A DNA stretch of 64,000 nt from Williamsia phyllosphaerae. Lineage in GTDB: Bacteria > Actinomycetota > Actinomycetes > Mycobacteriales > Mycobacteriaceae. The stretch covers positions 1,426,001-1,490,000 of the forward strand of contig NZ_BMCS01000001.1 in the NCBI RefSeq assembly GCF_014635305.1, given 5' to 3'. Below are positions 43,007 through 54,295 of this stretch, piece by piece. The notes under the pieces were generated by a model. That model was not told where the DNA came from. It ran no database searches and saw only the letters and a program-made list of their open reading frames with translations. Both the position numbers and the translations under genes were made by a program. Position 1 is the stretch's first letter. Each line of letters begins with the position of its first letter.

Positions 43007-44083
43007 TCAGCGAGGCCTGCCCGCCTCGGAGACCCAGCGCTGCGCGAAGTCGAGGAACACGTCGTTCTCGTGGGGCTCGGTGACCGTCACCCGCACGCCT
43101 TCGCCGGCGAAGGGGCGGATGACCACCTTGTGTTCCAGTCCCGCGGCGGCGAAGTCGAGGGCATCGGCGCCGAGGTCGATCCACACGAAGTTGGCCTGCG
43201 ACTCCGGCACCCGGTAGCCCAGCTCGATCAGGCGGGCGGACACCCGGGCACGTTCGGCCACGATGGCCTCGGTCCGCGCGAGCAACTCCGCGTCGGCGGC
43301 TAGGCAGGCGACCGCGGCCGCCTGGGCGAGGCTGTTGACGCTGAACGGGATGTGGACCTTGCGCAGCGCCTCGATGACTGTCGGGTCGGCGATCGCGTAC
43401 CCGACCCGCAGCCCGGCCAGTCCGTAGGCCTTGGAGAACGTCCGCAGCACGACGAGGTTGCGGTAGCGGCGGTGCAGTTCGATCGCGTCGTAGCGTTGCT
43501 CGGCCGAGGGGCGCAGGTACTCGATGTAGGCCTCGTCGAGCGCGACGACAACCTCGGGCGGCACCCGGTCGAGGAACGCGGTGAGGTCGTCGGCGTCGAC
43601 GACGGTGCCGGTGGGGTTGTTCGGGTTGCAGACGAAGATCAGGCGGGTCCGCTCGGTGATCGCCTCGGCCATCGCGGACAGGTCGTAGGTGTGGTCACCG
43701 GTCAGCGGGATCTGCACCGGCGTCGCCCCCACCACGCGGGTCGCCAGCGGGTAGGTCTCGAACGACCGCCACCCGAACAGGACCTCGTCGCCGGGCGCGC
43801 TGGTGATCGCGATCAGGTTCTGACACAGACTCACCGACCCACAGCCGGTCTGGATGTTGTCCGGGGTGACGCCGAGTCGCTTGGCCAGCGCCTCGGTGAG
43901 CTCCACCATCGCGTTGTCCGGATAGCGGTTGAGGCCGACCGCCGCGTCGGCGATCGCGGTGGCGACGCTGGGCAGAGGGCCGAAGGTGACCTCGTTGCTC
44001 GCCAGCTTCACCGCACCCGGGAACGTCTTGCCGGGAACGTAGGCGGGCAGGGTGGCCAGATCGGGTCGGATGCGCGGTGTCAC
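43007..44083 (-). CDS. pat: Histidinol-phosphate/aromatic aminotransferase (Pat/HisC2 type)
   Basis: This 358-residue fold-type I PLP enzyme starts at GTG. Motifs include KLASNEVTFGPLPSV, the GCGSVSLCQNL cofactor phosphate site, FVCNPNNPTGT, DEAYIEYL and the Schiff-base lysine in TFSKAYGLAGLRVGY. Type and neighbourhood match M. tuberculosis Rv3772, an aromatic amino-acid aminotransferase, rather than the HisC of the his operon. It likely interconverts phenylpyruvate/Phe and similar pairs. Confidence 0.85.
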   Translation of the reverse strand: MTPRIRPDLATLPAYVPGKTFPGAVKLASNEVTFGPLPSVATAIADAAVGLNRYPDNAMVELTEALAKRLGVTPDNIQTGCGSVSLCQNLIAITSAPGDEVLFGWRSFETYPLATRVVGATPVQIPLTGDHTYDLSAMAEAITERTRLIFVCNPNNPTGTVVDADDLTAFLDRVPPEVVVALDEAYIEYLRPSAEQRYDAIELHRRYRNLVVLRTFSKAYGLAGLRVGYAIADPTVIEALRKVHIPFSVNSLAQAAAVACLAADAELLARTEAIVAERARVSARLIELGYRVPESQANFVWIDLGADALDFAAAGLEHKVVIRPFAGEGVRVTVTEPHENDVFLDFAQRWVSEAGRPR

Positions 44084-44184
44084 ACCTCGAATCTAGGCGG
44101 GTGTCCTGCGGGTTACCAACCGGTTTGCTCCGCGCGACGCACGCTGTGTAACCTTTGCTCTCGGCAGTTCGTAAGGACTCCGCT

Positions 44185-44276
44185 GGAGGCGTGCCAGAGC
44201 GGCCGAATGGGATTCACTGCTAATGAATTGTCCCGCTAAAACGGGACCGGAGGTTCAAATCCTCTCGCCTCCGCCA
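44185..44276 (+). tRNA. tRNA-Ser (GCU anticodon)
   Basis: The acceptor arms GGAGGCG and CGCCTCC pair. Anticodon stem ATTCA/TGAAT closes the loop CTGCTAA, with anticodon GCT. A long variable arm (TCCCGCTAAAACGGGA) is typical of class II tRNAs, the T loop is GGTTCAAATCC, and CCA is encoded at 44274-44276. It reads AGC and AGU. Confidence 0.95.
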
Positions 44277-44314
44277 CGGCACCAGCGGCCGTACAACTGA
44301 ACACGCACGACCAC

Positions 44315-44387
44315 GCGCCCGTAGCTCAACGGATAGAGCACCTGACTACGGATCAGGAGGTTAGGGGTTCGAATCCCTTCGGGCGCA
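44315..44387 (+). tRNA. tRNA-Arg (ACG anticodon)
   Basis: The acceptor arms GCGCCCG and CGGGCGC pair. The anticodon loop CTACGGA carries ACG, expected to be deaminated to ICG. The T arm is AGGGGTTCGAATCCCTT. CCA is not encoded; the gene is followed by CAACG. It lies 38 bases after tRNA-Ser and is probably cotranscribed with it. Confidence 0.95.
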
Positions 44388-44394
44388 CAACGAG

Positions 44395-44428
44395 GTCCCG
44401 CCGCATCTGCGGCGGGACTTCTCTGTTG
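44395..44428 (+). terminator. Intrinsic terminator of the tRNA operon
   Basis: GTCCCGCCGCA, TC, TGCGGCGGGAC forms a perfect 11-base stem at 44395-44418, followed by TTCTCTGTTG. It sits 8 bases after tRNA-Arg and has a partial T-tract, a good Rho-independent signal. Confidence 0.85.
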
Positions 44429-44514
44429 TACGGCGGTGAACGCGCGCGAAGCGTTCGCCCGCGCGCCCAGTTTGGCGCGCGTGTGAACGGTGGGCGCGCG
44501 TTCGTCCACGATCC

Positions 44515-45702
44515 CTACCGCGCGGCGGCCAACGCCCGTTCCGCGACGCTCTCTGCGTCATGGGTGTTGATGTCGATGCCGGCGACGATCGCCCCGATCC
44601 GCTCGGCCTGCTCGAGGCCGGAGAGTTCGGTGGACCGGTAGGTCCGACCCGCCGCACGGGCGCTGTCGCGGACCAGTCGGGTGCGCTCGCGTCGGAGGTC
44701 CTCGTAGACCCGCAGCCGCGCCGGGACGTCGGTCGCGGCGCAACCGCGCAGGACGACGGCGAGCGTCGCGGCATCCTCGATGGCCTGATTCGCGCCCTGT
44801 CCGAGGTGCGGGGTCACCGCGTGCGCGGAGTCGCCCAACAGTGCGATGCGGTCGGTCGCCCACCGGTCGAGGGGTTCACGGTCGTAGATGCCCCAGCGGA
44901 AGGTGGTGTCCATCGCGGCGATCACGTCGAGGACCCGTTGATCCCACCCGGCGTAGGACGCCGCGAGCTCGTCGACGTCGCCGGGAGCCGTCCAGGACTC
45001 GACGACGTCGAGGTTGCTCGGCGCGAACGCCACCACGTTCAGCAGCGACCCCGCGGAGACGGGGTAGGCCAGGAAGCTGCGCTCCGGGCCGAGCCACATC
45101 GCGCACAGGCTCATGTCGACGATGTTCTCGACACGCTCGGTGGGGATGAGCGCGCGATAGGCCATGATGCCCTCGCTCACCGGCTGCGCGGGCGTGCCCA
45201 CCAGCCCCTGGAGACGCGAGTGGATGCCGTCCGCACCGATCACGAGATCGGCCTCGACGATGCTGCCGTCGGCGAACTCCATCTCGACGCCGTCGTCGTG
45301 TTCGGTGACCGCGACGACCCTGTGGCCCAGCCGGAGAGCATCGGTCGGGAGTGCGTCGGACAGCACTTGTTGAAACTCGCCGCGGTGCAGGAACAGGGTG
45401 TGCGCGGGATCGCCGAAGGACAACTCGGACGGCTCACCGGCGATCGGATCGCCCTGCCAGGTGCGGAACGCATAGTGCGAGAACCTGCCTGCGACCGCGC
45501 GGAGCTGCTCGCCGAGGCCGAGTCGGGTCAGGATCCGGGAACCGTTGGTGGCGATGGACACCCCGGCGCCCAGCGCTTTGAGCTCCGACGCCTGCTCGTA
45601 GACGACGGCGTCGACCCCCTCGGCGCGCAGCGCGATGGCGGCGCTCAATCCACCGATACCGGCTCCCACGACCGCGACGCGAAGTGTTCGATCTCGACTC
45701 AC
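44515..45702 (-). CDS. FAD-dependent monooxygenase (salicylate/3-hydroxybenzoate hydroxylase type)
   Basis: The 395 residues are counted from GTG 45702, chosen for the very strong AGGAGGAGGT just upstream; a longer frame exists. Motifs are GAGIGGLSAAIAL at the N-terminus, the DG motif LVIGADGIHSRLQ, and the GD motif ALLGDSAHAVTPHLGQGANQAIEDA. It probably hydroxylates an aromatic acid with NAD(P)H. It is divergent from a TetR gene, and two near-perfect operator palindromes lie between them, so it is likely inducible. Confidence 0.87.
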   Translation of the reverse strand: MSRDRTLRVAVVGAGIGGLSAAIALRAEGVDAVVYEQASELKALGAGVSIATNGSRILTRLGLGEQLRAVAGRFSHYAFRTWQGDPIAGEPSELSFGDPAHTLFLHRGEFQQVLSDALPTDALRLGHRVVAVTEHDDGVEMEFADGSIVEADLVIGADGIHSRLQGLVGTPAQPVSEGIMAYRALIPTERVENIVDMSLCAMWLGPERSFLAYPVSAGSLLNVVAFAPSNLDVVESWTAPGDVDELAASYAGWDQRVLDVIAAMDTTFRWGIYDREPLDRWATDRIALLGDSAHAVTPHLGQGANQAIEDAATLAVVLRGCAATDVPARLRVYEDLRRERTRLVRDSARAAGRTYRSTELSGLEQAERIGAIVAGIDINTHDAESVAERALAAAR

Positions 45703-45729
45703 GATCCGACCTCCTCCTGGATGCGTATC

Positions 45730-45745
45730 TGTACCGATCGGCACA
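45730..45745. promoter_or_regulatory. TetR operator copy 1
   Basis: TGTACCGATCGGCACA is a 16-base palindrome with one mismatched pair. It lies between the monooxygenase start (45702) and the TetR start (45784). Confidence 0.6.
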
Positions 45746-45760
45746 TCATTGACCGTAGGC

Positions 45761-45774
45761 GTACCGATCGATAC
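45761..45774. promoter_or_regulatory. TetR operator copy 2
   Basis: GTACCGATCGATAC is a second palindrome sharing the GTACCGATCG core with copy 1. It starts 31 bases downstream of copy 1 (about three helical turns), and ends 9 bases before the TetR ATG. Two aligned sites suggest cooperative binding. Confidence 0.6.
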
Positions 45775-45783
45775 ATTCAAGCA

Positions 45784-46353
45784 ATGCCCCGAATGCCCGA
45801 TCTCGACAAACGCGCCGAATTACTCCGCGCGGTCGTGGGGTATCTCGAGGACAACGGCGTCAGCGACCTGTCGTTGGCCCCGATGGCGGAAGCGTTGGGG
45901 ACGAGCAAGCGGATGCTGCTCTACTACTTCGGCGATCGGGGTGCGCTGCTGTCCCAGGCGCTGGAGGCAGCCCGTCCCGACGCGGGTCAGATCTTCGACG
46001 GCGTCACCACCGACGAGCAATTCGTCGAGGCTGCGCGCACCCTGTGGTTCGCCGTCTCCAGGGGAGATCAACGCCGCAGCGCGACCATGATGCTCCAGGT
46101 GTTGAGTCTGGCCACGACCGATCCCGACACCTACGGTCGGTATGCGCGCACGACGGTCGCGGTGCTTCTGAAGCCGATCACCGAAGCGCTTGTCGCAGTC
46201 GGCTATCCGCGCGCCGACGCCGCAGCTCGGGCGACCCTGGTGGTCTCCGGGTTGCGCGGACTGTGTCAGGACAGACTGGTGACCTCGCAGCGTGCACGGG
46301 TCGATGCGGCGGCCGAACTCGTCATCGCCGCGGCGGTCGCCCCGGGACGGTGA
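45784..46353 (+). CDS. TetR family transcriptional regulator
   Basis: The 189 residues have the helix-turn-helix LSLAPMAEALGTSKRMLLYYFGDRGALL at about residues 28-55 and a helical ligand domain. It is divergent from the aromatic monooxygenase with two shared operators in between, so it most likely represses both. The YYFGDR variant in place of YHFxxK is common in this subgroup. Confidence 0.86.
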   Translation: MPRMPDLDKRAELLRAVVGYLEDNGVSDLSLAPMAEALGTSKRMLLYYFGDRGALLSQALEAARPDAGQIFDGVTTDEQFVEAARTLWFAVSRGDQRRSATMMLQVLSLATTDPDTYGRYARTTVAVLLKPITEALVAVGYPRADAAARATLVVSGLRGLCQDRLVTSQRARVDAAAELVIAAAVAPGR

Positions 46354-46359
46354 GCCGAC

Positions 46360-47289
46360 TCAGGGGAGTGTGTGCCCGGCGGCGCGGAAGATCCGATACC
46401 ACTGCGCGCGGGTGAGATCGACGTCCGATCCGGCGGCCGCCTCGGACACCCGGCTCGGCGTCGTGGTCCCGAGCACGACCTGAATGTTGGCCGGGTGTCG
46501 GGTGATCCATGCGGTCGCGATCCCGGTTGGCGTGACGCCGTACTCGGTCGCCAATTCGTCGAGCACGTCGTTGAGTTCCGCGTAGTTCTCGCGGTCGCCG
46601 AGGAAGACGCCGTCGGAGGTGCCCTTCTGGAACGGCGACCACGCCTGCAGCGTCATCCCGTGGACCCGCGAGTAGTCCAGGAGCCCGTTGTCGCGACTCA
46701 CCGACTGGTCGAGACCGGCGATGTTCGCGGCGACTCCGGCCGCGATGAGAGGTGCGTGGGTGACACTCAGCTGCACCTGGTTGGCCACCAGCGGCTGCGT
46801 CACCGCAGTCTTGAGCAGTTCGATCTGTCCCGGGGTGTGATTGGAGACGCCGAACGCGCGTACCTTGCCCGCCGACTGCAACGTGTCGAAGGCGGCGGCG
46901 ACCTCGGCCGGCTCCATCAGCGTGTCCGGGCGGTGCAGCAGCAACAGATCCAGGTGATCTGTCCGCAGCGCGTCCAACGACTCGTCGACGGTGTCGAGGA
47001 TGTGTCGGGAGGAGAAGTCGTAGAACCCGTCGCGGATACCGACCTTGCTCTGCAGCATCACCTGCTCACGCTGTGACGCCGTGAACGACACCGCCCCACC
47101 GAATCTCCGCTCGCACGCATGCCGCTCGGTGCCGTAGATGTCGGCGTGGTCGAAGACCGTGACACCGGCGTCCATGGCTGTCCCGACGAGCGTACGGATC
47201 TGCTGGTCGTCCAGCGGCTCGATCCGCATCAGGCCGAGGATCACGGACGAGGCGGGTGCGGTGACGGAGTCCAACTCGACAAACTTCAT
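46360..47289 (-). CDS. Aldo/keto reductase
   Basis: The 309 residues form a TIM-barrel reductase of the YdhF-like group. The catalytic tetrad is visible as Asp in FDHADIYG, the Tyr of that block, Lys in LQSKVGI, and His in LLLLHRPD. The C-terminal GTTTPSRVSEA segment binds the NADPH phosphate. It reduces a carbonyl substrate that cannot be inferred. It converges on the TetR gene with a 6-base gap. Confidence 0.86.
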   Translation of the reverse strand: MKFVELDSVTAPASSVILGLMRIEPLDDQQIRTLVGTAMDAGVTVFDHADIYGTERHACERRFGGAVSFTASQREQVMLQSKVGIRDGFYDFSSRHILDTVDESLDALRTDHLDLLLLHRPDTLMEPAEVAAAFDTLQSAGKVRAFGVSNHTPGQIELLKTAVTQPLVANQVQLSVTHAPLIAAGVAANIAGLDQSVSRDNGLLDYSRVHGMTLQAWSPFQKGTSDGVFLGDRENYAELNDVLDELATEYGVTPTGIATAWITRHPANIQVVLGTTTPSRVSEAAAGSDVDLTRAQWYRIFRAAGHTLP

Positions 47290-47318
47290 GTCACCAGCAT
47301 GCCTGCCCCGCCGTCACT

Positions 47319-47423
47319 GCCCAACTGGTGGCGGTACGTGCCCAACTGGCGGGCTTTCGTGCCCAACTGGCGGGCTTTTGTGCCCAACTGGTGGCGGTAC
47401 GTGCCCACCTGGCGGGGCGGGAT
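47319..47423 (+). repeat. Five 21-bp tandem repeats
   Basis: The units start at 47319, 47340, 47361, 47382 and 47403. The consensus is GCCCAACTGG, then TGGCGGTACGT or CGGGCTTTCGT. Units 1 and 4 are identical and units 2 and 3 differ at one base. The fifth is degenerate. The array fills the gap between the aldo/keto reductase start and the end of the next gene. Being a multiple of three it is open in several frames, but nothing shows that it is translated. Confidence 0.95.
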
Positions 47424-49510
47424 CAGGGGTTCGAGTCCCCTGAGCCCTCGGCGGTCACGGTGTCCGCGGGCATCCGGTCGGCGCCCCAACTGCGTTCGAT
47501 GAATCCGATGATGCGGTCGATGTCCTCGGCGGGCACGTTCTCGGGCTCCCCGTTCTCCAACGGGTCGGCGTGGAAGATGTAGAGCCGTGACGCGAACTGG
47601 TCGAACGGCAGCGATCCCTCGCCGGCCCGTTCGCCGTTGCCCGCGGTGCCGACGACGACCCCGTCGCCCCAGTCCTGGCCACTGTCGTTGTTGGGGTTGA
47701 AGAAGTACACACGCATCACGCCGTCGGGGTCGGCGGCGACGCGCAGGATCGTGATCGCGTGCCAGCCGACGTATCGCGCTGCGCTGTCGGTGACCGCGAC
47801 CCCGGCCGGCTGGGGGTGGATCAGCGGCTGATCCCCGTTGTAGGCCGGGTGATACGACGCGTGGAACTGCCGCAGGAAGTCGTCGAGGTCGATCAATTTG
47901 CCGGTCTCGACGTCGACGTTGATGTGGAATTCCCTTGCTGCCCACCAGCCGTGGAACTCAGGGTTGACCCAGCGGTGCGGATCGCCCGGCCGCCCGGCGC
48001 AGCGACGGACCATCTCGGCGTAGATCCGGTCGAGGTGCGGGACCAGCAGCAGCGACACCGGATCGAGGTCGATGGGGTCGCTGGTCGCAACGCCACCGAC
48101 GCTGTCGGTGGACGACAACGGCTGACCCTCGAAGTGCATGACGATCTCGCCGTCGCGCGCCGCCCAGACCACCATCTGCAGCAGGTAGTCCGGATCGTTG
48201 TAGGCCCACATCGACAACGCCCGCGCCGACTGGCAGGTCGGGTTGTCGCCCTGTCCGACGCCGAGCGGTTGGCCGAGCATCGAGAGCAGTCCGCCGAGCA
48301 GTCGGGACGCGGGATCGGGGGACGGCCCGAACGCCAACGTCATCCGCTCACGGACGGCGGGGGAGAGTTTCAGCGCGATCTGACGCCACAGCGACGGCAC
48401 GATCGGCGGTTGGTGAAGGATGCCGCGGTCGAGCATCAGCGCGAGCCCGTAGAGGCACTGCGCAGTCTCGGGGTGCACGGCCTCGAGAACGAGACGATGG
48501 ACCAGTTCGGGGTAGCGCTGCAACGAGATCCGACCGGTCTCGGAGAGTCCGAGCGCCTCGGGCAACCCGTAGGAGTTGTTCTCCACGAGGAAACGCACCA
48601 GCGTCGCGTGGTACGGCGAGACGAGTCCGGTGTCGTGCATCGCGCGCGCGAAACCCCCTGCCTCGAACTGCAGGGCGCCGGCGTCCATGTTCTCCAGGCG
48701 TGACCGGTAGACGTCGACGCCGGGATCCTCACGACAGGAGTCGGTGGTCCCGAACAGCGCGGTGATCAGACGGTCCAGGCCCTGACCGGAGTTCCCGAGA
48801 TCGACACTCGGGTCGTCGCGGTAGATCGCGATGCGGGTGACCATCGAGGTGACCTGCTCGACCTGGATCGGACGCTGGCGCAGGATCCGCCAGATCTCCT
48901 CGACCAGTTCGTCGAGGACGCTGTCGTACCCGATCTGTTCGGCCACATAGGCGAACAGATCGCGGATCAGATACGCGGTGCGGCCCAGACGAACCCGCTC
49001 GGATTCCGACGGAGGCGTGAACAACACCTCGAGGTTCATGGCGAGGACCTGCGACAGGAACCGCCGCGCGTCGTCCGCGGAGATCGCCGGATGGGTGAAC
49101 TCGCCGGCGGCGATGGCCACCAACCGCAGTTCACTGGTCGCCTCGAGCACGACGGTGTCGTTCTGACCGCTGCGCAGGCTGGGACCGACGAAACCCGGGA
49201 CGAGGATGTCGGGTTGCGACCAGTCGGTGCCCTCGAACAACCCGGCGCCGTCGAGTTCGGCGGCGCGTTCACGGATCGCCGCGCAGCCGCCCTTCTGTGC
49301 CAGCACACGATGCAGGGAGTCGAGAACACGCCGCACCTTGGAGTTCTTGGTGAAGCTCGGCGCGTCACGCAGTGCGGCGGTCGCGTGATCGAGCTGCGCG
49401 AGCCGCGACGTCAGAGCCGGATCCTGCGCAGGCGAGGAATCCCCCTCTGTCGAGGAGGCATCCATCGTCTGCGTCGGTCCGGTCGAGTCGTTCCCGAGTT
49501 CCTGCTTCAC
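47423..49510 (-). CDS. Large protein with papain-like C/H/N residues, partner of an ATP-grasp enzyme
   Basis: The 695 residues start at GTG 49510, overlapping the ATP-grasp stop as GTGA. Residues 1-410 are mainly helical and unrecognised. Beyond them, Q420 and C426 (GVGQGDNPTCQSARALSMWA) are spaced six apart exactly as the oxyanion Gln and nucleophile of papain. YVGWHAITILRV gives H584 and VYFFNPNND gives N605, completing a papain-like Q/C/H/N set. A cysteine peptidase or transamidase acting on a peptide bond is the natural reading. There is no signal peptide or membrane segment, so it is cytosolic. Confidence 0.72.
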   Translation of the reverse strand: MKQELGNDSTGPTQTMDASSTEGDSSPAQDPALTSRLAQLDHATAALRDAPSFTKNSKVRRVLDSLHRVLAQKGGCAAIRERAAELDGAGLFEGTDWSQPDILVPGFVGPSLRSGQNDTVVLEATSELRLVAIAAGEFTHPAISADDARRFLSQVLAMNLEVLFTPPSESERVRLGRTAYLIRDLFAYVAEQIGYDSVLDELVEEIWRILRQRPIQVEQVTSMVTRIAIYRDDPSVDLGNSGQGLDRLITALFGTTDSCREDPGVDVYRSRLENMDAGALQFEAGGFARAMHDTGLVSPYHATLVRFLVENNSYGLPEALGLSETGRISLQRYPELVHRLVLEAVHPETAQCLYGLALMLDRGILHQPPIVPSLWRQIALKLSPAVRERMTLAFGPSPDPASRLLGGLLSMLGQPLGVGQGDNPTCQSARALSMWAYNDPDYLLQMVVWAARDGEIVMHFEGQPLSSTDSVGGVATSDPIDLDPVSLLLVPHLDRIYAEMVRRCAGRPGDPHRWVNPEFHGWWAAREFHINVDVETGKLIDLDDFLRQFHASYHPAYNGDQPLIHPQPAGVAVTDSAARYVGWHAITILRVAADPDGVMRVYFFNPNNDSGQDWGDGVVVGTAGNGERAGEGSLPFDQFASRLYIFHADPLENGEPENVPAEDIDRIIGFIERSWGADRMPADTVTAEGSGDSNP

Positions 49511-50748
49511 ACGTAGAAGTCCAGTTCTTCCTGTTGCTTGAGCAGATCCCGCATCCGATACGGGTCCTCGCCGAAGAAGTACAGCAGACCCCAGTGCGTG
49601 CCGAAGGCGGTCCGCTTGGTCACGGTCTCCTCCAGCGGCGGGGCGAGGTCGTTGGTCTCGTAGTAGTCGTCGTCGAGGGTGACCTCGGGGATCTCGAGAT
49701 TGCTCACCACGCGGCGACGCGGGTAGACCCCGAAACATCCTGCGACACCCGCGGCGTCGACGACCTCGCGCGGGAAGAACGCGTCGATCTCCTCTTCGGT
49801 GGTCTTCGGGTCGAAGGCCAGCGCGAGTCCCTGGTAGGCGTTGAAACCGTAGGCGCGCTCGAGGAGCTCGAACACCTTGAAGCCCGGCGGCCGGTACGCG
49901 ACCTCACCGAAGTACATCTCGCCGTCGCTGGTCACGAAGTACTCGGGGTGCACGAAGCCGAACTCGATGTCGAAGGTCTTGATGAGCTTCTCGATCTGCT
50001 CGGTGATCGCCGGACGGTACTTCTCCAGCTCCGGCGTTGCAGGCACGAACACCGAGTACCCGAGCGTCACGTACTCGGAGATGTTGAGGAACTTGATCTT
50101 TCCGTTGTGGATCCACGCCTCGACGGCGAACTCCCAGCCGTCGAGATGGGACTCCATGAGCACCGGGAACTCTTCTTCCGGGATGGAGTCGACCTCGTCG
50201 GGGGTGCGGATGACGCGGTGCCCGAGGCAGCCGGCCTTGTCGAACGCCTTGAGGTGGATCGGGTCGTTCGGGTCGCCGTCGAGCTTGAGCAGGGTCTGGT
50301 TGACGCGTCGCAAGAACCGGATGACGTCCTCGCGGTCGTGCGCCTCTTCGAAGATGCCGACGCGGATACCGCCCAGCTGGGCGCGTCGCTTCATCAATGC
50401 CTTGTCGCGCAACAACATCGCCTGACCGAACAACCGCGGGTTGTCCAGCAGGACCGAGTTGATGGCGCCCGCCCATTCGACGGTCTCCTCGTACAGTGGG
50501 ATCGCGACATCGACGCCCCTGTCGCGCAACGTCTCCGCGATCTCCAACGATCGATCGTTGAGCCGCTCGAAGTCCCACGGGAGGAACGGGATGTCGTTGG
50601 TGGTGCAGTACTCCTCGGCCCATGCGGGGGCGACGACGATGTACCGACGATCGAAGCTCTCGAGGGCTTCCACCGCGGCGAGACTCCAGCCCAGCAGGGC
50701 GACGTAGCCCTTGTCCGGGTTCTTCGGCAGCTTTGTGGGCTGCGACAT
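49507..50748 (-). CDS. ATP-grasp ligase-like protein
   Basis: The 413 residues start at ATG 50748 with GAAGGA upstream. The ATP-grasp core is visible: N-terminal pre-ATP-grasp fold (KGYVALLGWSLAAVEALESF), DKALMKRRAQLGGI as the first nucleotide-binding block, PVLMESHLDGWEFAVEAWIHNGKI, and the metal-binding HPEYFVTSDGEMYFGEVAYRPPGF. It is related to carboxylate-amine ligases of the carbamoyl-phosphate-synthetase/biotin-carboxylase superfamily. Its GTGA coupling to the papain-like protein suggests that the pair acts on one substrate, possibly a peptide or amino acid. Confidence 0.8.
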   Translation of the reverse strand: MSQPTKLPKNPDKGYVALLGWSLAAVEALESFDRRYIVVAPAWAEEYCTTNDIPFLPWDFERLNDRSLEIAETLRDRGVDVAIPLYEETVEWAGAINSVLLDNPRLFGQAMLLRDKALMKRRAQLGGIRVGIFEEAHDREDVIRFLRRVNQTLLKLDGDPNDPIHLKAFDKAGCLGHRVIRTPDEVDSIPEEEFPVLMESHLDGWEFAVEAWIHNGKIKFLNISEYVTLGYSVFVPATPELEKYRPAITEQIEKLIKTFDIEFGFVHPEYFVTSDGEMYFGEVAYRPPGFKVFELLERAYGFNAYQGLALAFDPKTTEEEIDAFFPREVVDAAGVAGCFGVYPRRRVVSNLEIPEVTLDDDYYETNDLAPPLEETVTKRTAFGTHWGLLYFFGEDPYRMRDLLKQQEELDFYV

Positions 50749-50840
50749 AAAGATCCTTCCTTCGCGTCGAACGGTCGGAGATGATCGTTTTCAACGGTAC
50801 ATAAGGCGTCTTGTCGGCCCGGTCCCCACCCAAGCGCAGG

Positions 50841-50846
50841 TATAAC
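50841..50846 (+). promoter_or_regulatory. -10 box for a probably leaderless gene
   Basis: TATAAC lies 8 bases before the ATG at 50855 and there is no ribosome site in between. Transcription would start at or next to the ATG, giving a leaderless mRNA, which is common in mycobacteria and relatives. No clear -35 is present. Confidence 0.45.
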
Positions 50847-50854
50847 TGACGTTC

Positions 50855-51523
50855 ATGCATCCCTTCGAGCGGCTCGCGCAGGACGCCATCGCGATCGTCG
50901 GGACGGGGCGGCGTGCGATCCTCGGCATCGCAGGCGCGCCGGGTTCGGGTAAGACGACCCTGGCCCGGTCACTCGTCGCCCGTGTCGGCGAACTACAGGG
51001 GCCGGAATGGGCCGCGCACGTCCCGATGGACGGTTTTCATCTGGGCGACGCTCAGCTCCGGCGACTGGGCACACTCGACCGCAAGGGTGCGCCGGAGACG
51101 TTCGATGCCGCCGGTTACGCCGCGATGCTGACCCGGATTCGCGTCGAGACGGAGACCCCGCTCTATGCACCGGGATTCGAACGCGAGCTGGAACAGCCGC
51201 TGGCCGCGGCGCTCGTGGTGCCCCCGACCGCCCGCCTCGTGATCACCGAGGGCAACTACCTACTCCTCGACGAGCCGATCTGGCGAGCAGCCCGCTCTGA
51301 GATGAATGCCGTGTGGTTCGTGACGACGGACGAGCGGACGCGGAGCGCGAGGCTCGTCATGCGGCACGTCGAGTTCGGAAAGGAACCCGACCGCGCCCGC
51401 GCGTGGGTCGCCGAGGTCGATCAGCGCAATGCTGATCTGGTCTCGGCGACGTCCACGCGCGCCGACCGCGTGATCGTCAGCACCGGTAGCGGGTGGGACG
51501 ACCTCGGGTGGTCAGCGCAGTGA
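50855..51523 (+). CDS. P-loop nucleoside/sugar kinase-like protein
   Basis: The 222 residues have Walker A GAPGSGKTT (residues 28-36), VPMDGFHLGDAQLRRLGTLDRKGAPETFDA, and ITEGNYLLLDEPIW. This motif set is the phosphoribulokinase/uridine kinase/pantothenate kinase superfamily, in the YfbR/FrcK-like 'nucleoside/nucleotide kinase family' branch. It phosphorylates a small hydroxyl-bearing substrate, possibly a sugar. It is divergent from the ATP-grasp gene. Confidence 0.83.
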   Translation: MHPFERLAQDAIAIVGTGRRAILGIAGAPGSGKTTLARSLVARVGELQGPEWAAHVPMDGFHLGDAQLRRLGTLDRKGAPETFDAAGYAAMLTRIRVETETPLYAPGFERELEQPLAAALVVPPTARLVITEGNYLLLDEPIWRAARSEMNAVWFVTTDERTRSARLVMRHVEFGKEPDRARAWVAEVDQRNADLVSATSTRADRVIVSTGSGWDDLGWSAQ

Positions 51524-51530
51524 GCGCAGG

Positions 51531-52196
51531 TCAGGACTTCGCGCGCCACTCGTCGGTGCGCTCGTTGCTCGCCTCGGCGAGGGCCGCACGCGCCTTCTCG
51601 GCGTCGTAGCCCTTGCCGTAGACGGGCGTACCCGGCTGCTGACGCCACGAATCGGCGATCGACCCGGCGTCGACGGGATCGAAACCGATCTGGTCGACGA
51701 GGTCGGACACGATCTTCTTGTGATCCACGTCGTCGCCGGCGATGGGCAGCGCGATACGTCCGTCGGTGCCGGCGTCGACACCCTTCTCCAGCAGGTGCTT
51801 CCAGTAGATCCCGTTGAAGACCTTGATCACTGGTGCGCCGATGTGCTCGGAGACCCATGCGCTCTCGGGCTGACCGTCCTCGATGGCGGCGATGAGGCCG
51901 TCGCGCTGCTGCGGGTAGTAGTTGTTCGTCTCGATGATCGGGGCGCCCGGTTTGCGCGCCGCGAACAGGTCGTCGGCCAGGTCGGGGACGTTCTTCTGGG
52001 GGATCGAGAGGATGACGAGGTCGGCGTCGGCCGCCGCGTCCTTCGCCCAGACCGCCCGGGCGCCGGTCTCCGACGCCAGGTCGGCCAGCGTCTCGGGGTC
52101 ACGCGAATTGGCGACCGCGACCTCGTGGCCGACGGCCGTGAGCCGCCGCGTCAGCGTCCCGCCGATGAATCCTGCTCCGATGATTCCGATCTTCAT
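51531..52196 (-). CDS. NADPH:F420 oxidoreductase-like NAD(P)-binding protein
   Basis: The 221 residues start with the Rossmann motif GIIGAGFIGGTLTRRL and the NADP-binding ANSRDPE block, followed by ILSIPQKNVPDLADDL and VIKVFNGI. This is the F420-reductase/NADP-binding family (pyrroline-carboxylate-reductase-like). It could transfer hydride between F420 and NADP, consistent with the F420-type LLM enzymes elsewhere in the window. Many family members do not use F420. Confidence 0.8.
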   Translation of the reverse strand: MKIGIIGAGFIGGTLTRRLTAVGHEVAVANSRDPETLADLASETGARAVWAKDAAADADLVILSIPQKNVPDLADDLFAARKPGAPIIETNNYYPQQRDGLIAAIEDGQPESAWVSEHIGAPVIKVFNGIYWKHLLEKGVDAGTDGRIALPIAGDDVDHKKIVSDLVDQIGFDPVDAGSIADSWRQQPGTPVYGKGYDAEKARAALAEASNERTDEWRAKS

Positions 52197-52294
52197 GTGC
52201 CCTGCTCCTGAGGTTCGACGACATCATCTGGTGTCGCTTCTCCACAGCATCGTGAGCAAGTCGAATATTCCTGTACCCGAGGTGCGCGTCACGC

Positions 52295-52360
52295 ATCCGC
52301 TCCGCTTGCGTCCATCCGCTCCGGTTGCAACAGGAGCGGATGGACGAAAGCGGAGCGGAT
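52295..52360. terminator. 28-bp hairpin downstream of the lipoprotein gene
   Basis: Arms 52295-52322 and 52333-52360 pair over 28 bases with one mismatch, around the loop GGTTGCAACA. Each arm contains two copies of ATCCGCTCC-like sequence. It begins 9 bases after the lipoprotein stop. A very strong hairpin without a T-tract fits an actinobacterial terminator; a mobile palindromic element is the alternative. Confidence 0.65.
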
Positions 52361-52368
52361 TCGATCGC

Positions 52369-53388
52369 TCAGTCGCCGGTGCGGGTGAGTTCGGCGCGGA
52401 ACCGCACCGTCCCGGCGCACGCACCCGACCACGCCAGGGCCGACTCGTTGTCCAAGGTCTGGATCGGATTCGAGGCGTCGCCCCCGACGGTGGTCTGCGA
52501 GGTCAGGGTCGGGCGGTACCTGTCGCCCCGGCCCGGGCACTGCCGCTCGGGGAGCGTCTCGGTCTGACGGAACACGCCGTCGGAGTACCCGACGATCGTC
52601 TGGCCCGGTCGGGACGGTCTGTCGAGCATGACCACCACGCAGCGGCTGCCGTCGCGAGTGCAGGTCGGTGTCGCCGTGAATTCTGTGGTCTGGGTCGTGG
52701 GGCGAGAGATCAGCGACGGTGGATCCCACGACACGACCGTGGTGCGTTGTCGGTAGGAACCGCGGAACCCGTTTCCCGCAGTGGTCGCGGCCTCGGGGAC
52801 CGAGACCTTCTCGAGGGCCGCAGTCCCCGCGGGCACATCGCCCTTGCGGGTGAACGTGACGGTCCCCTCGCTGACCCGGGGACACGAGCCCCCCTGGACC
52901 GAGCTCGTCGTGCCGGACAGGGTGGCGGGTGCGGCGCCGGCCGTCGACGCGGATCGAGGCATCACCGTCGTGCTGTCCATCGCCACCCAGGGCTCGTCGA
53001 CCGGTGCGGTCGTGCCGGTCGGGACACAGGAGCGTTTCGGCGGCACGTCAACCCGCGACCACGAGCCGTTGCCGAAGACGAACTCCATGCGGTCGACGTC
53101 GCCGCCCGACGAGGTGTCCGGACGCGCCACCGCGACGCACGTCCCGTCGTCACAGCGCGACTGCACCACCCAGGTCGACGTGACCGGGTCGGCGTCCGCA
53201 CCGCTCGGGGGCTCACGATTCACCGAGGCGGTGGTCCGGAACATCGAGTACGTGCCCTCGAACACCGCGCCGGCCGAACCGGTCGGGGTGGTCGCACCGT
53301 CGCCTGGGTCGGAGCTGCCGCACGAACCGAGTATTCCGGTGACGACGACGGCGGCCAGACAAGAGGTGACAACCTGGCGAAGGCGCAT
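52369..53388 (-). CDS. Putative lipoprotein with two related modules
   Basis: The 339 residues start at ATG 53388. The signal sequence VVTSCLAAVVVTGILGSCGSS ends in lipobox LGSC, so it is exported and lipid-anchored. The mature protein has two similar halves, each beginning FEGTYS or FRGSYR, continuing through a Cys-containing TWVVQSRCDDGTCVAVA or FTATPTCTRDGSRCVVVML hairpin, and ending in a Cys-Thr-Val strand. This suggests an internal duplication of a beta-rich domain with conserved disulfides, known from mycobacterial envelope proteins of unknown function. Confidence 0.75.
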   Translation of the reverse strand: MRLRQVVTSCLAAVVVTGILGSCGSSDPGDGATTPTGSAGAVFEGTYSMFRTTASVNREPPSGADADPVTSTWVVQSRCDDGTCVAVARPDTSSGGDVDRMEFVFGNGSWSRVDVPPKRSCVPTGTTAPVDEPWVAMDSTTVMPRSASTAGAAPATLSGTTSSVQGGSCPRVSEGTVTFTRKGDVPAGTAALEKVSVPEAATTAGNGFRGSYRQRTTVVSWDPPSLISRPTTQTTEFTATPTCTRDGSRCVVVMLDRPSRPGQTIVGYSDGVFRQTETLPERQCPGRGDRYRPTLTSQTTVGGDASNPIQTLDNESALAWSGACAGTVRFRAELTRTGD

Positions 53389-53500
53389 GCTTCGCAAACT
53401 AGGCGAACCGGCCGTCGGCTGCAGCGGTAAGCGCAGAAGTGCCCGCCTAGGGTGGATCCGCCGGCATACCTCCCGGCGTCGTCGATCTCAGGAGAACGCG

Positions 53501-54295
53501 ATGCACATCGATCTGTCCGGGCGCACCGCCCTGGTCACCGGTTCCACGCAGGGCATCGGAGCGGCCATCGCCGCCGGTCTCGCCCGTGCCGGCGCCCGGG
53601 TGGCGATCAACGGTCGCAGCGCCGACTCGGTCAACTCGGCCATCGCCACGCTAGGGGGCGATCTTCCCGACGCCGATCTGATCCCGGCGCCCGCCGATCT
53701 CGGTGACGCCGACGCGGCCGACGCGCTGTTCGAGCAGCTGCCAGGCGTCGACATCCTGGTGAACAACCTCGGGATCTTCGGGGCGACACCGGCGTTGGAG
53801 ATCACCGACGACGAGTGGCGGCGTTACTTCGAGATCAACGTCCTCTCCGCGGCCCGGCTGATCCGTCTATACCTCCCCGGGATGATGGAGCGGCACGACG
53901 GTCGGATCGCCAACATCGCCAGTGACTCGGCCCTGGTCATCCCCAAGGAAATGATCCACTACGGGATGTCGAAGACCGCGCTGCTCGCGGTGTCGCGCGG
54001 CTACGCGAAAGAAGCGGCGGGCACCGGCGTCACCGTCAACTCGGTGATCGCAGGCCCGACGCACACCGGTGGTGTCGAGGACTTCGTCTACCAACTGGTC
54101 GACAAGGATCTGCCGTGGGACGAGGCGCAGCGGGAGTTCATGCGCAAGCACCGACCGCAGTCGTTGCTGCAGAGGCTGATCGAGCCGGAGGAGATCGCCA
54201 ACCTCGTCGTCTACCTGAGCTCACCGTTCGCCTCGGCCACCACCGGTGCCGCGGTACGGGTGGACGGCGGATACGTCGACTCCATCGTCCCCTGA
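53501..54295 (+). CDS. SDR family oxidoreductase
   Basis: The 264 residues start at the ATG with AGGAG at 53490-53494. It has TGSTQGIG near residues 14-21, VNNLGIF, the catalytic Ser in IASDSAL, YxxxK in HYGMSKTAL, and AAVRVDGGYVDSIVP at the C-terminus. The VEDFVYQLVDKDLPW lid loop is characteristic of the oxoacyl-reductase-like subgroup. The substrate is unknown. Confidence 0.86.
   Translation: MHIDLSGRTALVTGSTQGIGAAIAAGLARAGARVAINGRSADSVNSAIATLGGDLPDADLIPAPADLGDADAADALFEQLPGVDILVNNLGIFGATPALEITDDEWRRYFEINVLSAARLIRLYLPGMMERHDGRIANIASDSALVIPKEMIHYGMSKTALLAVSRGYAKEAAGTGVTVNSVIAGPTHTGGVEDFVYQLVDKDLPWDEAQREFMRKHRPQSLLQRLIEPEEIANLVVYLSSPFASATTGAAVRVDGGYVDSIVP

Follow-up and report, generated by a model that had tools for sequence, protein, structure and literature searches.

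Within a 64,000-nucleotide stretch of the Williamsia phyllosphaerae genome (contig NZ_BMCS01000001.1, positions 1,426,001 to 1,490,000; hereafter the window), open reading frame (ORF) calls and translation define two minus-strand genes in the same direction, encoding a 413-residue ATP-grasp ligase followed by a 695-residue partner protein. The pair is of the kind that couples a ligase with a papain-like amidase, and the partner belongs to no named family. Our computations support both sequences, their strict pairing, the conservation of key residues, a predicted papain-like domain and the enrichment of a promoter upstream. The reading that we favor, with about as much trust as doubt, is that of a portable two-gene cassette in which the ligase and a thiol amidase or acyltransferase would act on one amide metabolite, sometimes under stress control. 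A first-pass annotation of this DNA had proposed a make/break pair. That proposal is partly supported, being strengthened but not proven: the predicted papain-like domain, the conserved residues, the amide-ligase type of the ATP-grasp enzyme and the strict coupling all speak for it, and the common substrate is what we infer.

The C-terminal domain of the partner is very likely papain-like, if not proven to be so, judging from its AlphaFold2 model (46 sequences; mean predicted local distance difference test, pLDDT, 82.5; predicted template modelling score 0.72). Residues 31-413 of the model are helical. C426 opens a helix, H584 lies within a strand, and N605 comes directly after another (Table 1), so that Gln, Cys, His and Asn occur in papain-like order, with the cysteine at a helix start and the histidine in a strand. 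When the top 1000 Foldseek chains were re-aligned structurally with VIA, the leading 17 of the rows listed were all calpain protease cores (MEROPS family C2; Z 6.8-8.2, root-mean-square deviation 4.2-4.8, 197-216 residues aligned). They span residues 379-655 of the partner model, and the next row below them is a helical match with a Z value of 6.0. The first-pass annotation had staked its claim on a papain-like structure prediction, and calpain cores do lead the structural matches. A BFVD search with the partner has two papain-family viral proteins at ranks 2 and 4, without significance. The weak structural matches of the helical N-terminal region include nuclear-pore, SKI and CAND1 proteins.

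The residues Q420, C426, H584 (in GWHAI) and N605 (in YFFNPNN) stand exactly where the first-pass annotation had placed them, and all four are invariant in three overlapping sets of aligned homologues that include the window (15/15, 11/11 and 47/47). Homologous loci were drawn from 592 confirmed stretches encoding partner relatives in contigs of one genome per species, a count made with two peptide patterns so that a single gene may be counted twice; 80 loci, among the matches listed, were kept. The peptide patterns for the 80-locus set include Q420/C426 or N605, and conservation of these three residues in that set is therefore partly built in, while H584 is in no pattern. The fair set for Q420, C426 and N605 consists of the 19 rows, the window's among them, that were found without patterns; all four residues are kept in them (19/19). 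The conservation of C426, H584 and N605, on which the first-pass annotation had also made its proposal depend, thus holds in both collections. C426 is the only invariant cysteine out of five, C504 being next at 98%. Invariant columns make up 94 of 266 in residues 385-650 and 48 of 354 in residues 31-384, and the C-terminal region is so highly invariant that a few invariant residues there would be expected for any conserved domain. Since N607 and N608 are likewise invariant, and an alignment to family C1 pairs N608 rather than N605 with the papain asparagine, the third residue of the triad is less certain.

At the sequence level, the partner matches no Pfam family at E values up to 1. When its 47 members were compared with Pfam at E values up to 10, the nine families listed (best E 0.012) included no papain-like one, and no member reached the curated cut-offs of the Pfam papain families (C1, C2, C39, C39_2, BtrH_N and others). 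Only an insignificant match was obtained from NCBIfam, phmmer/hmmsearch against the PDB and hhalign provided no significant link to papain families, and PF00112 is not matched anywhere in the genome that carries the window. Local hhalign comparisons, six in all, place the best C1 alignment on H584 (P 0.0085) and set Q420/C426 on the calpain-like Gln and Cys of the C2 alignment (P 0.54), neither of which we count as proof. A role in antiphage defence was set aside, as neither PADLOC nor PHROGs yielded a match for the partner at E <= 0.1.

The ATP-grasp core of the ligase, which the first-pass annotation called complete, is so in substance: PF13535 is matched with an E value of 1.2e-5, yet with 25.5 bits against a cut-off of 27. 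The ligase shows no match to LAL_C2 and stays under the Pfam and NCBIfam cut-offs. Its profile matches are the L-amino-acid ligases 3vot and 4wd3, together with 4dim (E 0.0009-0.006), and the same three structures are retrieved with its model by VIA: RizA (4wd3; Z 15.8, root-mean-square deviation 5.1, 317 residues aligned), 4dim (Z 15.4) and BL00235 (3vot; Z 14.9). K167 and the signature H267-x-E269 ... E282-x3-R286 are invariant in 32/32 sequences and align to the corresponding positions of 3vot, 4wd3 and 4dim, known as ATP, metal and substrate positions. The ATP lysine, two metal-binding Glu residues and the Arg of an ATP-grasp fold are thus found, in a model with a pLDDT of 64.3. In profile and structure comparisons, the ligase lies closest to small-molecule ligases (RizA, BL00235, PurK-like). 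It shares the fold and the H-x-E ... E-x3-R signature with RizA, BL00235 and ATP-grasp_4/PRK07206, whereas identity to RizA and BL00235 is 14-15% in the structural alignment and the family matches are below cut-offs, LAL_C2 being absent. Three distant ATP-grasp relatives (27-30% identity) adjoin genes for a pyridoxal phosphate enzyme, an FMN reductase, a transporter of the major facilitator superfamily or a non-ribosomal peptide synthetase, and the ligases at two of these loci, the two that were scanned, match LAL_C2 together with an ATP-grasp model; this setting points to small-molecule chemistry. The ligase ends in a conserved LDFYV, which we considered as a possible substrate of the partner. 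A structural reason for its conservation is simpler, because the fold matches run to residues 411-413.

The pairing of the two genes looks obligate. Among 101 close relatives, the identical 15 carry a partner homologue and a strong ligase match (>730 bits), while seven others have ligase matches of at most 38 bits. Among 296 actinomycetes, the same three carry both genes with strong matches, in samples drawn with equal settings. Partner homologues were found in 4/396 genomes of a phylum sample and in 3/148 genomes of a distant actinomycete order; the homologue counts in these genome samples each include a starting genome. The ligase lies directly upstream of the partner in 80/80 named loci, with partial matches at L066 (a contig edge) and L086. 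Co-occurrence, which the first-pass annotation had put forward as a check, therefore bears out the coupling in all three collections. Pairwise distances of ligase and partner correlate (r = 0.92, 96 loci), which is no test since the sequences are related. The commonest other neighbour cluster, among clusters built with a simple ORF caller, occurs at 12/80 loci, so no third linked gene seems to be needed; a ribosomally synthesized and post-translationally modified peptide (RiPP) cluster or other larger gene cluster was set aside, as there is no conserved neighbour. At L027 and L029 (Rhodococcus/Rhodococcoides), two related cluster-86 proteins with an N-terminus of secreted type, as judged by eye, flank the cassette on both sides.

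The first-pass annotation also reported a GTGA overlap, which is present as four bases shared between the ligase stop TGA and the partner start GTG (...TTC TAC GTG TGA / GTG AAG CAG...). The overlap is a local feature confined to a subset of loci. The gap between ligase and partner is zero in 13/80 named loci, from Williamsia, Rhodococcus and Rhodococcoides, and 10-196 bases in 66/80; L074 shows a 28-base overlap, as measured from tblastn ends.

The pair also occurs in two gammaproteobacteria, Oceanimonas and Halomonas. In a quick tree the two copies fall between actinobacterial branches, which suggests that the cassette may have been transferred between phyla, in one direction or the other. 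The neighbours of the Oceanimonas cassette resemble genes for lysine-tRNA ligase and release factor 2. Partner relatives were found neither in phages nor in viral contigs at E <= 1e-3, and the plasmid search returned one Halomonas record. Convergent genes follow the Oceanimonas cassette (L085:10076-13008); by resemblance they would encode putrescine aminotransferase and succinate-semialdehyde dehydrogenase, and a link to polyamines is conceivable. In the Halomonas partner (L103:8001-10079), similarity is lost close to the C-terminal end, as after a change of reading frame.

A profile of the partner C-terminal domain detected the three known genomes among the 296 actinomycetes and ten weak matches (E 0.03-0.7). 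We rejected the latter as distant relatives, nine having been inspected by eye and found to be unrelated or out-of-frame stretches. Three of the nine look like ends of UvrD-like helicases. The resemblance concerns partner residues 612-648 (WGDGVVV...GER...LPF) and helicase C-terminal ends, with E values of 0.03-0.46 in L164, L168 and L172; these are three genomes of one family, and the resemblance is probably due to chance.

The 250 bases before the ligase were scanned in 88 loci for GTTT-N13..18-GGG[TA]A. The site was found in 21/88 upstream regions, all with a spacer of 15 or 16, compared with 3/898 control ORF upstreams, 3/88 on the opposite strand, and an average of 0.69 (at most 4) across 100 randomised sets. 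Spacers of 12-14, 17 and 18 gave zero matches. The bearers are Streptomyces (4/12), Amycolatopsis (4/9), Antrihabitans (1/1) and Nocardia (12/19), that is, loci L032, L037, L060, L064, L046, L050, L053, L055 and L068 with the 12 Nocardia loci. Because the loci are related, they do not amount to 21 independent events, although four genera are spanned. The consensus sequences given for SigB/SigF-type promoters in two papers are GTTTAA-N12-14-GGGA/TAA/T (PMC8346170) and GGWWT-N16-17-GGGTAY (PMC7693655), and the putative GTTT-N15/16-GGG[TA]A promoter matches this published type. The match suggests that the cassette may be used under stress in some members of these four genera.

The proposed action of the pair can be outlined as follows. 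In the manner of L-amino-acid ligases, the ATP-grasp ligase would use ATP to activate a carboxylate and would couple it to an amine. The partner would be a thiol enzyme, presumably cytosolic, with C426 as the nucleophile, H584 as the base, N605 as the third residue and Q420 at the oxyanion hole, in a papain-like domain placed behind the helical N-terminal region. It may hydrolyse the amide made by the ligase, giving make/break control as in glutathionylspermidine synthetase/amidase; alternatively, it may pass the acyl part of the amide to a final acceptor. Fixed pairing, the lack of other conserved genes, occurrence in two phyla and the stress-type promoter fit a self-contained metabolite cycle. 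More specifically, a mobile, stress-controlled pair could make and recycle an undiscovered low-molecular-weight amide, as the equivalent, in actinobacteria, of the glutathionylspermidine cycle, an extension that we regard as tentative and somewhat doubtful.

The statement of the first-pass annotation that no known pathway contains such a pair is too strong, because glutathionylspermidine and trypanothione synthetase-amidases combine a ligase with a papain-like amidase, each of another family. As in our pair, an amide ligase is coupled there to a papain-like cysteine amidase with opposed make and break activities, and the ligase is ATP-dependent. These enzymes are described as a ligase joined to a papain-like (CHAP) amidase (PMC10318531, PMC6272389), and the second paper describes the amidase cysteine of E. 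coli GspSA as redox-regulated, oxidation switching the amidase off so that the product accumulates (PMC6272389). GspSA is one bifunctional polypeptide with a CHAP amidase, whereas our pair consists of two genes, lacks any match to CHAP, and sets a ligase of the L-amino-acid-ligase type beside a partner whose calpain-like domain follows a helical region; judged by sequence family, the pair is not a member of the GspSA group, its ligase belonging to another branch. The partner resembles the calpain core and other clan CA peptidases in the predicted fold of residues 379-655 and in Q-x5-C with a later His and Asn, but it has no Pfam-level sequence similarity to them, is bacterial and is paired with a ligase. 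In the butirosin pathway, BtrJ is an ATP-grasp loading enzyme, and BtrJ and BtrH act on an acyl carrier protein within a larger cluster. BtrH is a papain-like acyltransferase, according to PMC10318531; the likeness is thus an ATP-grasp enzyme and a papain-like transferase within one pathway, and the differences are that our pair has no conserved third gene and that the BtrH_N profile comparison is not significant. The 'New_papain' family was introduced, in PMC2922099, as a then-new papain-like family in predicted peptide-synthesis clusters, some with ATP-grasp ligases. Those clusters are large, with synthetase paralogues, carrier proteins and oxygenases (PMC2922099), unlike the present pair; the partner family might still be the same as 'New_papain'. 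A literature search for a ligase/papain-like pair of the present kind found no paper, from which we do not assert its absence from print.

Several observations weigh against the favored reading. Foldseek of the partner model against the PDB gave no match at E <= 0.001 and none that is papain-like among the 50 matches listed. The calpain Z values come close to best values that the tool describes as common (7-8), and the 17 calpain rows come from one closely related family and are therefore not independent. Local hhalign comparisons with the C1, C2, C39_2 and BtrH_N alignments reached a best probability of 4.7%, which is not significant. Confidence in the ligase model is low (pLDDT 64.3). The strict promoter is absent in 67/88 loci, window included, and from all scanned loci of Williamsia, Rhodococcus, Gordonia, Saccharopolyspora, Pseudonocardia and Mycolicibacter. 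Catalysis, a common substrate, the direction of action, the cellular location and the physiology are all inferred. If the partner had an unrelated fold, the order of Cys, His and Asn would be a coincidence; the missing sequence-level relative among papain families and the insignificant Foldseek result would agree with this. We consider it most improbable, given that 17/17 top re-alignment rows belong to one papain-clan family, that papain-family viral proteins appear, not significantly, near the head of the BFVD matches, and that the helix and strand placement of C426, H584 and N605 fits. That the domain is papain-like but catalytically dead, acting as a scaffold for the ligase or binding to it, is very unlikely: inactive papain-like proteins are known (PMC10318531), yet the invariance of all four residues in the pattern-free rows and in the 47 homologues, with C426 as the sole invariant cysteine, argues against it.

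Two other readings accept an active domain and differ in what it acts upon. The ligase might attach a peptide or a single amino acid to a protein, from which the partner would remove it, as do tubulin tyrosine ligase and vasohibin in eukaryotes. The large helical N-terminal region with its weak nuclear-pore, SKI and CAND1 matches and the calpain-type domain would suit such a pair, but the ligase is closest to small-molecule ligases, its distant relatives adjoin small-molecule biosynthesis genes, and no gene for a target protein is linked in the 80 loci, which together make protein modification unlikely. Alternatively, the partner may be a regulated cytosolic calpain-like protease for which the ligase makes a small-molecule effector or inhibitor, the two sharing a regulon and no substrate. 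Calpain cores are indeed the nearest folds, the helical region could be regulatory, and a stress promoter is present at some loci; nevertheless, strict one-to-one pairing without a linked target better fits an enzyme pair, and we regard this alternative as quite unlikely.

With the partner, the papain-like superfamily would gain a family. In the tentative reading as a counterpart of the glutathionylspermidine cycle, this new family would be combined with a divergent L-amino-acid ligase in a cassette able to function on its own once moved between actinobacteria and gammaproteobacteria. Matching stretches are numerous (592, with possible double counts), so the pair is widespread, yet the partner is unnamed in Pfam and NCBIfam. 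From the strict pairing, the lack of any other linked gene and the occurrence in two phyla, the substrates should be common cell metabolites. A metabolome comparison between cells that have the two genes and cells that lack them could reveal the product, and the stress-type promoter in several genera tells the conditions in which to look.

Table 1. Coordinates of the two genes and of predicted partner features in the window.
Feature	Position in window	Strand	Basis
ATP-grasp ligase, 413 residues, L-amino-acid-ligase-like	49507..50748	(-)	ORF, translation, profile and structure matches
Two-domain partner, 695 residues, GTG start, no named family	47423..49510	(-)	ORF; family scans
Partner residues 31-384, all-helical N-terminal region	48359..49420	(-)	AlphaFold2 secondary structure; weak matches to helical proteins
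Partner residues 385-650, predicted papain-like catalytic domain	47561..48358	(-)	AlphaFold2, calpain-core matches, invariance
C426 codon, predicted nucleophile	48233..48235	(-)	starts helix 426-438; sole invariant Cys
H584 codon, predicted general base	47759..47761	(-)	within strand 580-593; invariant
N605 codon, predicted third triad residue	47696..47698	(-)	directly after strand 599-604; invariant

The window belongs to a contig of 2.99 Mb in a genome of 4.81 Mb, and its closest named relatives among the loci kept are Williamsia. The cassette is flanked upstream by a divergent gene, whose product carries a P-loop-type GAPGSGKT sequence and has no Pfam match, and downstream by an aldo/keto reductase gene. 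The RNA elements found in positions 44000-54000 are two tRNAs only. Just downstream of the partner gene, at 47310-47415, a 21-base unit containing GTGCCCAACTGGYGG is tandemly repeated. Among 175 loci, which include three copies of the window's own locus, this 15-mer is present only in that locus and in one close relative. Genome-wide it has 42 copies, 20 of them forward and 22 reverse (none for the reversed control), many in small arrays and some as facing pairs.

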